A stretch of 64,000 nt of DNA from Terriglobales bacterium (lineage in GTDB: Bacteria; Acidobacteriota; Terriglobia; Terriglobales; Acidobacteriaceae). The notes beneath the pieces are model-generated. The model saw nothing but the letters and a program-made list of their open reading frames with translations. It was not told the DNA's origin and searched no databases. Positions 2,157 through 53,188 of the stretch are shown here, in pieces (the first letter of the stretch is position 1; every line of letters begins with the position of its first letter). Both the position numbers and the translations under genes were made by a program. The stretch covers positions 1 through 64,000 of the forward strand of contig DATHMF010000105.1 in NCBI GenBank assembly GCA_035487355.1. The letters are read 5' to 3'.

Positions 2157-2244
2157 TGGTGCACAGGGGAGGATTCGAACCTCCGTAGCTCCAAGGAGCG
2201 GCAGATTTACAGTCTGCTGCCATTAACCACTCGGCCACCTGTGC
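2157..2244 (-). tRNA. tRNA-Tyr (anticodon GTA)
   Basis: Minus-strand class II tRNA of 88 nt with acceptor stem GCACAGG/CCTGTGC, a long variable arm (GCTCCTTGGAGC hairpin), anticodon loop CTGTAAA giving GTA, T-arm GGTTCGAATCC, and encoded CCA. Second tRNA of the cluster. Confidence 0.97.
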
Positions 2245-32554: not shown

Positions 32555-34294
32555 ATGCTCCGAATTTGTGTGGTTCTTGCCCTAGTCACCTGTAGCTTTG
32601 CCGCGTCCATATCTACGCCCGAGCATCCGCTGGCGACACTGCGGCCGCATCCGAGAATCATTGCCACCGATGCCGATTTCGCCCGCCTGCGCGAACTAGT
32701 ACGCAAAGATGCATTCGCAGCAAAGCTCTATGCCGACCTCAAGCATCAGGCCGACCAGATGCTCGACCAGCCGACCGTGGTGCATCGTTTGATTGGCCCG
32801 CGGCTGCTCGACCAGAGCCGCCTGTGCCTGGAGCGCGTCTACACACTGGCGCTGGTATATCGTATCAGCGGTGAAACTAAGTACCTGAACCGCACGGTAA
32901 AAGAGCTGCGCGCCGCCGCAGCGTTCCCAGATTGGAACCCATCGCATTTTCTCGACGTGGCCGAGATGACCCATGCACTCGCCATCGGCTACGACTGGCT
33001 CTATCAGGACCTCAGCGCCGAAGACCGCGCCCTGTTTCGCCGGGCCATCACAGAAAAAGGACTGGACGAGGCCATCAAGATCTATCAGCACCACAACTGG
33101 TGGACCGTAGTCGTGCACAACTGGAACCAGGTGTGCAATGGCGGTATCACGCTGGGCGCATTGGCAATCGCCGATGAAGACCCGGAGCGCGCGGAGTACA
33201 TCGTGAAGCAGTCGGTGGAATCTATCCAGCTCGCCATGGCGTCCTACGCACCTGAAGGCGGATGGGCTGAGGGCCCCGGCTACTGGCAGTATGCTACGTC
33301 GTACAACGTCTACTACCTGGCGGGACTCGAGAGCGCGCTGGGCACCGATTTTGGGCTCTCATCACTCCCCGGCTTCGAGCATGCCGGCGATTTTCGTCTC
33401 TATTTCCAGGGCCCGGGCGGCACCTTCAACTACGCAGACGCGCACTCGCCCGCGGGTACCGCGCCTGAAATGTTCTGGCTTGCGCACCGGTTTTCGGAGC
33501 CGGTCTTCGCGTGGGACGAATTGCGGCATCTGACTGCGGGTGACAAGCCGCAAGCTCTCGACCTGGTTTGGTATCAGACAGTAGGGCGAAGCCCGGACGC
33601 GGCGCACTGGACGCGGCGCAGAATGTTTGCAGGCGTCAACGTAGCTTTTCTGCGCAGCGGTTGGGAGTCACCGGATGCTTTCTGGATCGGCGTCAAGGGC
33701 GGTGACAATCAGGCCAACCACAGCCACCTCGACCTGGGCAGCTTCGTGCTCGATGCACGCGGCGTGCGCTGGGGGCTCGACCTGGGCAGCGATGATTACA
33801 ACATGCCCGGATATTTCGGCAAGCAGCGGTACACGTACTATCGCTTGCGCACGGAATCACACAACACGGTGTTGATTGACGGCGAGAACCAGGACGCGAA
33901 AGCCAAGGCCCCTATGACTATGAAGAACGGAGTAGCGACCATTGATTTGGCAGAAGCCTATCCGGGGAAGGTCACGAAATTCGTGCGCACCGTCGAGCTT
34001 ACGCCGCAGAACACTGTAACGGTGCGCGACGAGATTGAGGCACCTCACCCCGTGGAAGCCTTGTGGGGCATGGTCACCGATGCGCAGGTGACGATTGACC
34101 ACAACCACGCCCGACTGGAAAAAGGAAATACCGCGCTGCAGGCCGAGATCGTCTCGCCCAAAGGTGCGGTCTTTGAGACGGTTTCTACCACTCCTCTGCT
34201 GACGATAGAAGATCCCAATAAGGGGACTCAGAAATTAGTGGTCCGGCTCAAGGGCAAGGTGACCCGCACGCGGATCGAGGTGGAGTTCCGGTAG
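32555..34294 (+). CDS. Heparinase II/III-like polysaccharide lyase, exported
   Basis: A 579-residue protein with a signal peptide (MLRICVVLALVTCSFA). It has the heparinase II/III organisation: an alpha/alpha toroid with HPRIIATDADFARLRELVRK, DWLYQDLSAEDRALFRRAI, HHNWWTVVVHNWNQVCNGG (likely active-site Asn/His/Tyr region) and EGPGYWQYATSYNVYYL, then a beta-sandwich with NQANHSHLDLGSFVLDARG (metal-site His). It probably cleaves an acidic polysaccharide in the periplasm or outside. It stands alone without neighbouring sulfatases or transporters. A perfect 108-bp duplication begins in its last codons (see 34277-34492). Confidence 0.88.
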   Translation: MLRICVVLALVTCSFAASISTPEHPLATLRPHPRIIATDADFARLRELVRKDAFAAKLYADLKHQADQMLDQPTVVHRLIGPRLLDQSRLCLERVYTLALVYRISGETKYLNRTVKELRAAAAFPDWNPSHFLDVAEMTHALAIGYDWLYQDLSAEDRALFRRAITEKGLDEAIKIYQHHNWWTVVVHNWNQVCNGGITLGALAIADEDPERAEYIVKQSVESIQLAMASYAPEGGWAEGPGYWQYATSYNVYYLAGLESALGTDFGLSSLPGFEHAGDFRLYFQGPGGTFNYADAHSPAGTAPEMFWLAHRFSEPVFAWDELRHLTAGDKPQALDLVWYQTVGRSPDAAHWTRRRMFAGVNVAFLRSGWESPDAFWIGVKGGDNQANHSHLDLGSFVLDARGVRWGLDLGSDDYNMPGYFGKQRYTYYRLRTESHNTVLIDGENQDAKAKAPMTMKNGVATIDLAEAYPGKVTKFVRTVELTPQNTVTVRDEIEAPHPVEALWGMVTDAQVTIDHNHARLEKGNTALQAEIVSPKGAVFETVSTTPLLTIEDPNKGTQKLVVRLKGKVTRTRIEVEFR

Positions 34295-34492
34295 AGAAAA
34301 GCGATCAGCACTCAGCCTAGGAGCGATGACATGAATAGATTCGATGATTTGTTCGCAAACGATGTGACTCTCACTCTGAAAAAAGAGGTGGAGTTCCGGT
34401 AGAGAAAAGCGATCAGCACTCAGCCTAGGAGCGATGACATGAATAGATTCGATGATTTGTTCGCAAACGATGTGACTCTCACTCTGAAAAAA
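34277..34492. repeat. Perfect 108-bp tandem duplication
   Basis: 34277-34384 and 34385-34492 are identical in my reading. The unit spans the last codons and stop of the heparinase gene, the spacer with its AGGAG site, and the first 18 codons of the next gene. The first copy therefore encodes a dead-end 23-codon frame (34331-34402), and the second copy leads into the intact gene. Confidence 0.95.
34331..34402 (+). pseudogene. Truncated duplicate start of the small acidic protein gene
   Basis: The first copy of the 108-bp unit carries AGGAG and ATG and the first 18 codons of the downstream gene, then runs into the duplicated end of the heparinase gene and stops at its TAG after 23 codons. It is a by-product of the tandem duplication, though it could be translated. 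Confidence 0.7.
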
Positions 34493-34693
34493 GAGGAGGC
34501 TCTCGTTCTCTTTGAGTTGCTCGCTAACATCAAAGAGGAAGCCGCCATACCTATCCGAGATGGAGCCGAACGCAGGGCAATCTGGAATCTCGCAGTACTC
34601 TTTGAAAGCAAGCTGGCAGAACCATTCATGCACGATTACGCTGCGATCATTCAAGACGCCAAGAGCCGCCCGGTAGCGGGCCATCCAAACTGA
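34439..34693 (+). CDS. Small acidic protein of unknown function
   Basis: Encodes 84 residues (MNRFDDLFANDVTLTLKKEE...), with AGGAG eight bases before the ATG. It is rich in Glu, Leu and Ala, probably helical, without signal or membrane segments. Its 5' end is the second copy of the 108-bp repeat. The copy at 34331 has the same start and ribosome site but stops after 23 codons, so ribosomes may also start there unproductively. No family was recognised; the good start and composition support a real gene. Confidence 0.65.
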   Translation: MNRFDDLFANDVTLTLKKEEALVLFELLANIKEEAAIPIRDGAERRAIWNLAVLFESKLAEPFMHDYAAIIQDAKSRPVAGHPN

Positions 34694-34764
34694 CTTCAAC
34701 GATTGAAACGGCTCAATCTTGAAAATCCGTTCTCATCAAGCCCCGGCCGTGCGATACTGACCAA

Positions 34765-35040
34765 GTGATTCGCCGAACAACCATAGGCGTTTTGACCGCA
34801 GTGATCTCGTTCTTCGCGCTGCCGTCTCAGTTCGCCTATGCGAAAAGCGAAACCGACGTTTGCACCATTGCTTGCCTGGCGGAAGCCCGCACGCAGCAGC
34901 CAGTCAAGCTGCGAACTGAAGTCGCGCGTTTCCCCCGCTATGCGGAAGCAAACTTTTCTCCACTGCCCTCCCTGGCGGTCGAGTTCGCCGGCACAACCCG
35001 GCAGCAACGTGCCCCGCCTCTCATTCCAGCGACAAACTGA
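34765..35040 (+). CDS. Small exported protein upstream of the SecA-like gene
   Basis: A GTG at 34765 opens 91 codons with a clear signal peptide (MIRRTTIGVLTAVISFFALPSQFAYA) followed by a short mature part with two Cys (VCTIACLAEA), which may form a disulfide. It ends 37 bases before the ATG of the SecA-like gene on the same strand, so the two are probably one transcript. Function is unknown; the pairing suggests it may be cargo or a helper of the translocase, which is inference. Confidence 0.6.
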   Translation: MIRRTTIGVLTAVISFFALPSQFAYAKSETDVCTIACLAEARTQQPVKLRTEVARFPRYAEANFSPLPSLAVEFAGTTRQQRAPPLIPATN

Positions 35041-35077
35041 AATTAACAAAATCACCGGAATAGTAAGGAGGACGGCC

Positions 35078-37195
35078 ATGCGCCAGTTTCTGCGTTCACT
35101 TTTTGCAAAGCGAGCTTCCACGCAATTCAATATTCAACGGATCAACTCGATCCGCTCCAACCTGGCCCAACAAAGCGACGAGCAGTTGCGGGCGTACGCG
35201 CGCGGCGCGACCGGCAAGATGGAAATCATTGCGGCCGCCGCGGTCGTGGCTTCGCGCATTCTGGGACTGGAGATGTTCGATGTGCAACTGCAAGGCGCGC
35301 TGGCCCTGACCGAGGGCAAGATTGCGGAGATGCAGACAGGGGAGGGTAAGACCCTGGCGGCGGCGCCGGCCGTGGTCTGGTATGCCAAGCAGCGAGAGGG
35401 CGTTCACGTGATGACGGTGAACGATTACCTGGCCCGGCGCGATGCCAAGTGGATGGGAGGAATCTACGAATTCTTTGGCTTTTCCGTGGGCTACATCCAA
35501 AGAGACATGAGCACGGAAGAGCGCAAGCGGGCCTATCACTGTGACATCACTTATGCCACGGCCAATGAAGTTGGTTTCGATTATCTGCGCGACCAGATGG
35601 CGCTATATCCCGGGGAGCAGGTACACCGAGGCTTTACAGCGGCGGTCATTGATGAAGCTGATTCCATCTTGATCGATGAGGCGCGCATTCCCCTGGTGAT
35701 CGCAGGCGGGGAAGCAAACGCCGAAAGCCTTCCTTACCGGGTGGACCGCCTGACCCGCCAGTTCCGGTCCCTTGTTCATTACACGACGGATGAATACGCA
35801 AGGAATGTTGCCCTGACCAACGAGGGGATTCGGGCTGCGGAAGCGGAGTTCGGCTGCGACAATCTGTTCGCTGAAGAGAACCTCAACCTGCTTTCAGCGA
35901 TTCAGGATTCCATTCATGCGCACGCGCTGCTTCATCGCGACATGGACTACCTGGTGAAAGACGGCACGATTAAATCCGTCGACGAATTTAAGGGACGCAT
36001 CATTCAAGACCGCCGCTGGCCCGCCGGCCTACACAGCGCGATTGAAGCCAAAGAAGGTGTGGCCCTCAAGAAACAGGGCGGAATTCTAGGTTCGATTACT
36101 TTGCAAAACCTGGTGGCGCTGTATCCTCAGGTATGCGGAATGACGGGCACGGCCGCCACACAAGTGGAGGAGTTTCGCGCAATCTATAATCTTGCGGTCG
36201 AGGTAATCCCTACCAATCGTCCCGTGATTCGCAGCGATCATCCGGATGTAATATTTCCGACCAAGCAAGCCAAAGAAGACGCTGTGATACAAGAGGCCGG
36301 GCGCGTACATCAGACCGGGCAGCCGGTGCTGGTGGGGACAAGCAGCGTAGAAGAATCGGAACGGCTCAGCCGCCGCCTGCAGCTCGAGGGGATCGAGCAC
36401 CAGGTCCTGAATGCGCGCAACGAAGAACAGGAGGCTACGATTATCGCGCGCGCGGGCGAACTGGATGCAGTAACGATCTCCACAAATATGGCAGGACGCG
36501 GTACTGACATCAAACTGGGGCGCGGTGTGGCGGAACTTGGCGGCCTTCACGTCATTGGCACCAACCGGCATGAAAGCCGCCGGATCGACAACCAACTGCG
36601 TGGGCGGGCGGGGCGACAGGGTGATCCCGGCAGCTCTCGCTTTTTTATCTCTTTGCAAGACGACCTGCTGGTGCGCTTCGGCATTGATGATCCGCTGGCG
36701 CTGAATGATGTGGACCACATTCAGCGGCGGATGGAGGGCCAGAACCTGGAAATTCGACGGTTCCTGGAGAAGTATGAGTCTGTCATTGAAGGGCAGCGGC
36801 TGGCAATTCAAAGCCGCCGCCAGGACCTTCTCACCGGCGCTCTCCCCTGTTTTTCGGAAACGGAGAGATTGGTAAGACTGACCACCATCGACGATCTCTG
36901 GGCGGAGTATCTGGAAGCCCTTACAGAGTTGCGCTCAAGCATCCATTGGGTCTCATGGGGCGGACGCGACCCGCTTCATGAATACCTGAAGACTGTCGAT
37001 TCTTTGTATCAACAACTTGAACCGCAGATCGAGGAAGAGACGCCGAAACGCCTGGCGAAAACTCAAGCCGGCGGCTTTGATGCTTCGCAACGGGGAGCAA
37101 CCTGGACTTATCTGACGACCGACCGGCCCTTTGGCAGCATCTCGGAACGAATTCTCCGAGGTTTGGTGCACAAGGCGAAACAATATGTGCACTGA
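35078..37195 (+). CDS. Short SecA-like preprotein translocase ATPase (SecA2-type)
   Basis: SecA drives protein export through SecYEG. The ATG at 35078 is preceded by AAGGAGG, excluding the longer frame upstream; the product is 705 residues against 830-900 for canonical SecA. Walker A MQTGEGKT is at 85-92, the Walker B region reads VIDEADSILIDEARIPLVI, and motif VI is GRAGRQGDPGSS. The preprotein crosslinking region is visible (residues ~215-370). The C-terminus lacks the Cys-rich zinc-binding tail that binds SecB and lipids. The scaffold helix is probably shortened. This pattern fits an accessory SecA2 that exports a limited set of proteins. Confidence 0.9.
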   Translation: MRQFLRSLFAKRASTQFNIQRINSIRSNLAQQSDEQLRAYARGATGKMEIIAAAAVVASRILGLEMFDVQLQGALALTEGKIAEMQTGEGKTLAAAPAVVWYAKQREGVHVMTVNDYLARRDAKWMGGIYEFFGFSVGYIQRDMSTEERKRAYHCDITYATANEVGFDYLRDQMALYPGEQVHRGFTAAVIDEADSILIDEARIPLVIAGGEANAESLPYRVDRLTRQFRSLVHYTTDEYARNVALTNEGIRAAEAEFGCDNLFAEENLNLLSAIQDSIHAHALLHRDMDYLVKDGTIKSVDEFKGRIIQDRRWPAGLHSAIEAKEGVALKKQGGILGSITLQNLVALYPQVCGMTGTAATQVEEFRAIYNLAVEVIPTNRPVIRSDHPDVIFPTKQAKEDAVIQEAGRVHQTGQPVLVGTSSVEESERLSRRLQLEGIEHQVLNARNEEQEATIIARAGELDAVTISTNMAGRGTDIKLGRGVAELGGLHVIGTNRHESRRIDNQLRGRAGRQGDPGSSRFFISLQDDLLVRFGIDDPLALNDVDHIQRRMEGQNLEIRRFLEKYESVIEGQRLAIQSRRQDLLTGALPCFSETERLVRLTTIDDLWAEYLEALTELRSSIHWVSWGGRDPLHEYLKTVDSLYQQLEPQIEEETPKRLAKTQAGGFDASQRGATWTYLTTDRPFGSISERILRGLVHKAKQYVH

Positions 37196-40030: not shown

Positions 40031-40050
40031 AGTAAAAAATCCTCGTTGGT

Positions 40051-40117
40051 CCGATTTAAGCCCGCGGGTGGTTTCAATCTCCATCGGAGGTCCTTCGCCT
40101 ACGGCTCAGGATGACAC
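40051..40117. repeat. Dispersed CCGAT...ATCGG repeat, copy 1
   Basis: Copy of an element that begins CCGATttAAGCC and contains ATCGGAGGTCCTTCGCC...CTCAGGATGACA. Copies 2 and 3 lie at 51261 and 53123. Confidence 0.75.
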
Positions 40118-44974: not shown

Positions 44975-45024
44975 ACCCAGGGCTTACGCCCTGGGCTACA
45001 TTCTGCCGCCCCTTCCGGGGCTGG
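44975..45024. repeat. Dispersed REP-like repeat, copy 1 (CCCAGGGCT type)
   Basis: Contains a palindrome CCCAGGGCTTACGCCCTGGG followed by CTACATTCTGCCGCCCC and TTCCGGGGCTGG. A second copy lies at 48660-48707. It sits between the DUF2339 and DUF3999 genes. Confidence 0.75.
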
Positions 45025-48522: not shown

Positions 48523-48977
48523 TTGTTTATCTTTCCAGAGATTGTTTCAAAAATGTATTTGGTTGTTGATCGTTAAATTGCAAAACGCTAAAGAGTCTGT
48601 GTGAGAACTCAAAGGCATAGCACCGTCCCTTGCGGGACTACGAATGGTTTGTTACCGATACCCAGCGCTGAAGCGCTGGGCTATAACACATCACCCCTTC
48701 GGGGTTGTTCGTCTTCAAAATTCTTAAGAATTCAAAAACAACCGAACGTTAAGGTTTCTCGGCACAAAAGGGATTCCTCGTCGCTACGCTCCTCGGAATG
48801 ACAATTCAATCATTCATCTTGATGCTCGACCATTCCGTACCTACAGGCTTTTTCCGCAAGCTCTAAAGTCGGCTCTGATACAAAGCTTATTCTTAAACAA
48901 GCTCCTAATGGTCATAGTGCAGGGGGAAGATAGTTTCGTCCAATGAATTGTAGAGTGCTATTTGATAACTTATAGGA
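48523..48977. other. Intergenic region with dispersed repeat
   Basis: 455 bp upstream of the LysR gene, containing a CCCAGCGCT-type repeat copy (48660-48707) and a GATTCCTCGTCGCTACGCTC-type string near 48775. Apart from a possible weak start site (ATAGGA before the ATG at 48978), no gene or clear promoter is seen. Confidence 0.4.
48660..48707. repeat. Dispersed REP-like repeat, copy 2 (CCCAGCGCT type)
   Basis: CCCAGCGCTGAAGCGCTGGG then CTATAACACATCACCCCTTC and GGGGTTG. The layout (perfect palindrome, GGGCTA, CCCC-TTC-GGGG stem) matches the copy at 44975. Confidence 0.75.
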
Positions 48978-51223: not shown

Positions 51224-51260
51224 AGGCATCGAGCATCGAGAACGAAACTTCTCAGGTTAT

Positions 51261-51337
51261 CCGATGGAAGCCGTGGGTGGCGCCCATCTCCATCGGAGGT
51301 CCTTCGTCCCGCACAAAACGCGGGACTCAGGATGACA
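51261..51337. repeat. Dispersed CCGAT...ATCGG repeat, copy 2
   Basis: Contains CCGATggAAGCC and CATCGGAGGTCCTTCGTCC...CTCAGGATGACA. Between the aminotransferase and serA. See copies at 40051 and 53123. Confidence 0.75.
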
Positions 51338-52966: not shown

Positions 52967-53122
52967 AACTGCTTACCGCGGATTGCGCGGATTTTTTTAG
53001 AGTGCCTTTTCCTATTTCTGTGCCGCAGCACAAGACACAGCTAAAACACTCTCGAGTTCGGAGCCATCGTCGTGATTCCGGTCGTGATTCCGTCAGCGTG
53101 AGGGAAAAATCCAGGCGAAAAT

Positions 53123-53188
53123 CCGATTGAAGCCGTACATGGTTCCCATCGCCATCGGAGGTCCTTCGCCACGTGGCTCAGGATGACA
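53123..53188. repeat. Dispersed CCGAT...ATCGG repeat, copy 3
   Basis: Contains CCGATtgAAGCC and CCATCGGAGGTCCTTCGCCA...CTCAGGATGACA. Between serA and the site-2 protease gene. See copies at 40051 and 51261. Confidence 0.75.

Follow-up and report, generated by a model that had tools for sequence, protein, structure and literature searches.

An exact 108-bp tandem duplication across the junction of a heparinase-like gene and a small downstream gene in a Terriglobales genome

The window analyzed in this study is a 64,000-nt stretch of contig C105 from the draft genome of a Terriglobales bacterium. It carries on the plus strand an intact gene for a heparinase II/III-like protein of 579 aa (32555–34294; Pfam Hepar_II_III_C, E = 5.9e-12), whose stop codon, TAG, is placed as in a 73% identical relative (locus L037). 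On the same strand follows an intact gene for an 84-aa protein (34439–34693) belonging to a family without a name, which was recognized from its open reading frame and its relatives. No Pfam or NCBIfam entry matched this protein; relatives with E below 1e-6 were found in 4 of 395 other genomes of the phylum, and a relative with 43.7% identity is encoded on a plasmid of Vitreoscilla filiformis. In the alignment with five relatives, conservation sets in at residue 12 for four of them and at residue 7 for the fifth, and judging from the sequences we regard the 84-aa gene as real. These two genes, a leader-like open reading frame and a secA paralog sit between a kinase gene and a DinB gene (32555–37195).

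Two copies of a 108-bp unit, at 34277–34384 and 34385–34492 on the plus strand, lie across the junction of the heparinase-like gene and the 84-aa gene; they are identical at 108 of 108 positions and abut head to tail at 34384/34385. The identity does not extend to the left by a single base and extends to the right by 4 bases (GAGG, 34493–34496), and the run with a period of 108 covers 34277–34496, with 2.04 copies, 100% matches and a TRF score of 440. The unit begins with the final five codons and the stop of the heparinase-like frame (18 nt), continues through a 36-nt gap containing TAGGAG, and closes with codons 1 to 18 of the 84-aa frame (54 nt). In copy 1 the 3' end of the heparinase-like gene is the real one and the 5' end of the 84-aa gene is a copy; in copy 2 the heparinase tail is copied and the 84-aa gene has its real 5' end. 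At the unit-to-unit junction ...CTGAAAAAA is joined directly to GAGGTGGAG..., and in a single-copy arrangement the unit, preceded by the upstream flank, would be followed directly by GAGGAGGCTCTCG. The two copies are the only matches to the unit in the genome (118 contigs; 5,428,838 bases, approximately 5.43 Mb), and the duplication consists of two directly adjacent copies of an otherwise unique sequence. We rate it an ordinary case of a known mutation class.

The ribosome-site-like TAGGAG of copy 1 (34318–34323, plus strand) precedes an ATG at 34331, which opens a chimeric frame of 23 codons (34331–34402, plus strand; MNRFDDLFANDVTLTLKKEVEFR, stop TAG), and that of copy 2 (34426–34431, plus strand) precedes the real ATG of the 84-aa gene at 34439. 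The chimeric frame consists of 18 codons of the 84-aa gene followed by EVEFR and the stop, the two frames meeting in register. The original prediction had described identical 108-bp units in tandem over this gene junction, a duplicated ribosome site and a 23-codon decoy frame closing on the copied TAG, and each of these was found again here at the positions given above. Because the conserved part of the 84-aa family begins at residue 12, or 7 in one relative, the decoy holds only the edge of this part, and the frame looks like a by-product of the breakpoint positions, without sign of function. Since the unit starts inside one gene and ends inside a co-oriented downstream gene, a complete copy of each gene survives. 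Ribosome site and start have similar predicted exposures in the joined single-copy sequence (0.435), at the decoy (0.424) and at the real gene (0.451), and little change would therefore be expected. A consensus scan of 34200–34900 found no promoter or terminator near the unit, and Rfam gave nothing at gathering scores at the duplication locus.

We searched for relatives of the duplicated junction in several ways. At the DNA level, no relative of the junction, in single-copy or two-copy form, was present in 99 other genomes; among 396 genomes of the phylum, no relative of the 84-aa protein had the junction in either form; in 149 other genomes the 84-aa protein had no match at E ≤ 0.001; and a pattern search of contigs gave 96 stretches, none of which was a relative. 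In the 73% identical relative of the heparinase-like gene (L037), the gene end is present in one copy with the same final codon and is followed by a different gene, with no duplication. As no single-copy relative was found, the view that a copy was gained rather than lost rests on parsimony. A genome of the same genus (G001) shows 72–81% identity in its four longest matches, and its syntenic interval between the kinase and DinB genes lacks the heparinase-like gene, the 84-aa gene and the secA paralog. The kinase and DinB genes lie approximately 0.8 kb apart there (locus L179), with a different gene between them, and the comparison of 32555–37195 with G001 reads as a replacement of gene content at this place. 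The contig that carries the secA paralog of G001 is 3 kb long and starts only a short distance before the leader-like frame, and it therefore cannot show the duplication junction.

The two breakpoints have exactly four bases in common, GAGG, lying within GAGGtGG upstream (GAGG at 34277–34280, plus strand) and within GAGGaGG downstream (GAGG at 34493–34496, plus strand); the two heptamers agree at 6 of 7 positions with one mismatch. Such a few bases of homology are too little for homologous recombination. Among 198,462 random pairs of breakpoints taken 50–200 bp apart in the window, 1.9% had at least 4 common bases, and for so short a homology this frequency is modest evidence. Unequal crossing-over needs longer prior homology. 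The breakpoints have none, and unequal crossing-over was rejected as the origin; with GAGG as the only breakpoint homology, duplication by slipped-strand synthesis or template switching is favored. Of the slippage or unequal exchange proposed originally, the former thus gains support from the 4-bp microhomology, and the latter is disfavored. The length of 36 codons, which had been offered as a pointer to the mechanism, does not serve as such, because the unit spans a non-coding gap and any length is a multiple of three with a chance of 1/3. Hairpin-assisted slippage was also considered and received no folding support, since no stable hairpin bringing the breakpoints together was found (z = +1.12, with equally good or better folds in 179 of 200 shuffles). 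No transposase was present among the 9 neighboring proteins scanned. Published accounts describe E. coli amplification junctions with microhomology (PMC3161906), and junctions in bacteria tend to be richer in it than those of eukaryotes (PMC5053440).

The most probable course of events would be slipped-strand synthesis or template switching between GAGGtGG and GAGGaGG, which lay 108 bp apart before the duplication, with GAGG as the exact common part of both sites, in a single and fairly recent event. The duplication would persist since it is harmless: with one breakpoint in the final codons of the upstream gene and the other in the opening codons of the downstream gene, each gene, and the 36-nt gap with the ribosome site, is still there as a whole copy. 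We consider it very likely that the duplication is real, single, fairly recent and harmless, that it arose by slippage or template switching and that the 23-codon frame is its by-product. More generally, a duplication running from one gene into the next can leave both whole, and such duplications can survive and seed chimeric small frames.

An artefact, in which the genome has one copy and the second arose during assembly or from a chimeric library molecule, deserved attention because the genome is a draft of 118 contigs, many of them small, and is probably derived from a metagenome. Of the 236 contig ends, 101 were compared. Exact overlaps of 141 bases occur in three pairs, including the one between C22 and the start of C105, the contig of the window; a fourth pair has its first 141 bases in common and then diverges (C105/C22, C70/C21, C14/C118 and C35/C53 of genome G000). 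The exact overlaps are the signature of de Bruijn assembly at k = 141 and link C105 to C22. Other overlaps at contig ends do not fit this k (two of 93 bases, one of 26 and one of 21) and may be ordinary repeats. According to passages of PMC10914622, contigs of metaSPAdes and MEGAHIT end in common sequence of the maximum k, and the k lists given there end with 119 and 141 for MEGAHIT and with 127 for metaSPAdes. Repeated words in the array reach 112 bases at most, and each 113-mer across the duplication is unique; a graph built with k = 119 or 141 therefore runs through the array as a simple path. A single-copy genome has no word containing the unit-to-unit junction and would yield no two-copy path at these k values, so two copies should arise only from reads that cross the junction. 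Furthermore, the window has no N, and neither 108 nor 112 is a k in the cited lists. From the contig-end overlaps and the unique 113-mers, the assembly artefact suspected originally is now unlikely; a chimeric library molecule or a mixture of strains is a possible source of the second copy, and overall we assign a low probability to an artefact of either assembly or library. This use of the contig-end overlap length can serve as a gauge of whether short tandem repeats are likely to be real in draft genomes for which reads are lacking.

Another reading is an old duplication whose copies were kept identical by gene conversion or recombination: zero differences at 108 sites do no more than bound the divergence between the copies at 2.7% (95% upper limit). 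Tandem repeats can homogenise. The original prediction had called the event probably very recent or homogenised; the absence of differences loosely supports recency, within this bound, and homogenisation is possible. Nothing requires it, however, and no relative searched carries both copies, which makes an old, homogenised duplication very improbable. We judge as similarly improbable a maintained regulatory leader, in which the 23-codon frame is translated and ribosomes terminating at its stop are passed on to the 84-aa gene, or in which changes of copy number tune the expression of this gene (phase variation). The decoy does have a ribosome site identical to that of the real gene, and its stop lies 36 nt before the real start, the same distance that the heparinase stop had; but such spacing is the automatic outcome of duplicating the unit, given a 1-in-3 coincidence of frame, the arrangement is absent from all relatives searched and has only 2.04 copies, and the predicted exposure of the start site is little altered. 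Hardly credible to us, and slightly less so than these two, is that the duplication has become fixed and useful, as a translated 23-codon leader for the 84-aa gene or as a switch collapsing to one copy by recombination; if it were useful, a leader effect might perhaps also reach the downstream leader-like frame and the secA paralog.

Perfect tandem duplications were scanned for at unit lengths of 20–1499 bp, and the 108-bp duplication, far beyond chance expectation, is the only one in the window with a unit of at least 20 bp. Elsewhere in the genome (60 stretches; 977,039 bases, 15,823 of which are N) one 24-bp duplication and one 7-bp microsatellite were found, and other genomes (154 loci; 942,194 bases with overlaps counted, a total that includes L144, which is from the source genome and was left out of the scan) gave one 28-bp repeat, this census being informative for short units only because an assembly at k = 141 would tend to drop longer repeats.

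Variable-number tandem repeats and contingency loci are tandem arrays whose copy number recombination could change. The present locus is likewise a tandem array, but it has two copies only (2.04 in this genome, against the more than two of such loci), a 108-bp unit over two genes and no sign of repeated expansion. Transposon target-site duplications are direct repeats, usually far shorter than 108 bp, that flank an inserted element, whereas the copies here have nothing between them and abut at 34384/34385. The closest likeness is to bacterial tandem duplications at microhomologies, as described in parts of PMC3161906 and PMC5053440, with which it has in common an exact head-to-tail copy, a few bp of breakpoint homology and no mobile element found; unlike the events described there, which are mostly of kilobase scale, the unit here is just 108 bp and under no known selection.

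A separate observation, which may be more interesting than the duplication, concerns a 91-aa frame with a signal-peptide-like start (34765–35040, plus strand; assigned by eye), directly upstream of the secA paralog (start at approximately 35078). The paralog has Pfam SecA domains, and a second SecA-like match is on contig C66. Counterparts of the frame are present in G001 (L136, 58–336; RAPP) and in genome G036 (L180, 2105–2374; RPPP), and the C-terminal ends are ...RAPPLIPATN in the window, ...RAPPRILTAD in G001 and ...RPPPVPSFFS in G036. In each of them the motif starts at the tenth residue from the end, as counted back from the C-terminus, because a MAFFT alignment of the three misplaces RAPP. 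A class of arrest peptides with RAPP-like motifs near the C-terminus, in small secreted proteins encoded upstream of secA, secDF or yidC, is described in parts of PMC10987492 and PMC12992588; words starting with Acidobacter- occur zero times in the main text of the former and once in that of the latter. By its sequence, the 91-aa frame is a candidate translation-arrest leader of the SecM-like or RAPP type. Fold predictions for all three show base pairing between the region of the secA ribosome site and a segment that coincides with the motif codons or directly follows them, but the energies are no better than those of shuffles (76, 38 and 95 of 200 shuffles as low).

Other features were noted elsewhere in the window. 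A perfect 38-nt repeat (2012–2049 and 2151–2188, 139 bp apart) covers the 3' end of a tRNA-Tyr gene (2157–2244, minus strand), and its copy at 2012–2049 is a stray tRNA 3' fragment downstream of that gene. Two Acido-Lenti-1 RNA motifs (Rfam RF01687) are present at 44976–45022 and 48661–48706, and a similar stretch occurs in G001 (L179, 1051–1103). Lastly, a dispersed family of 53-nt repeats has three copies, at 40050–40102, 51259–51311 and 53121–53173, with 66% and 83% identity to the reference copy.
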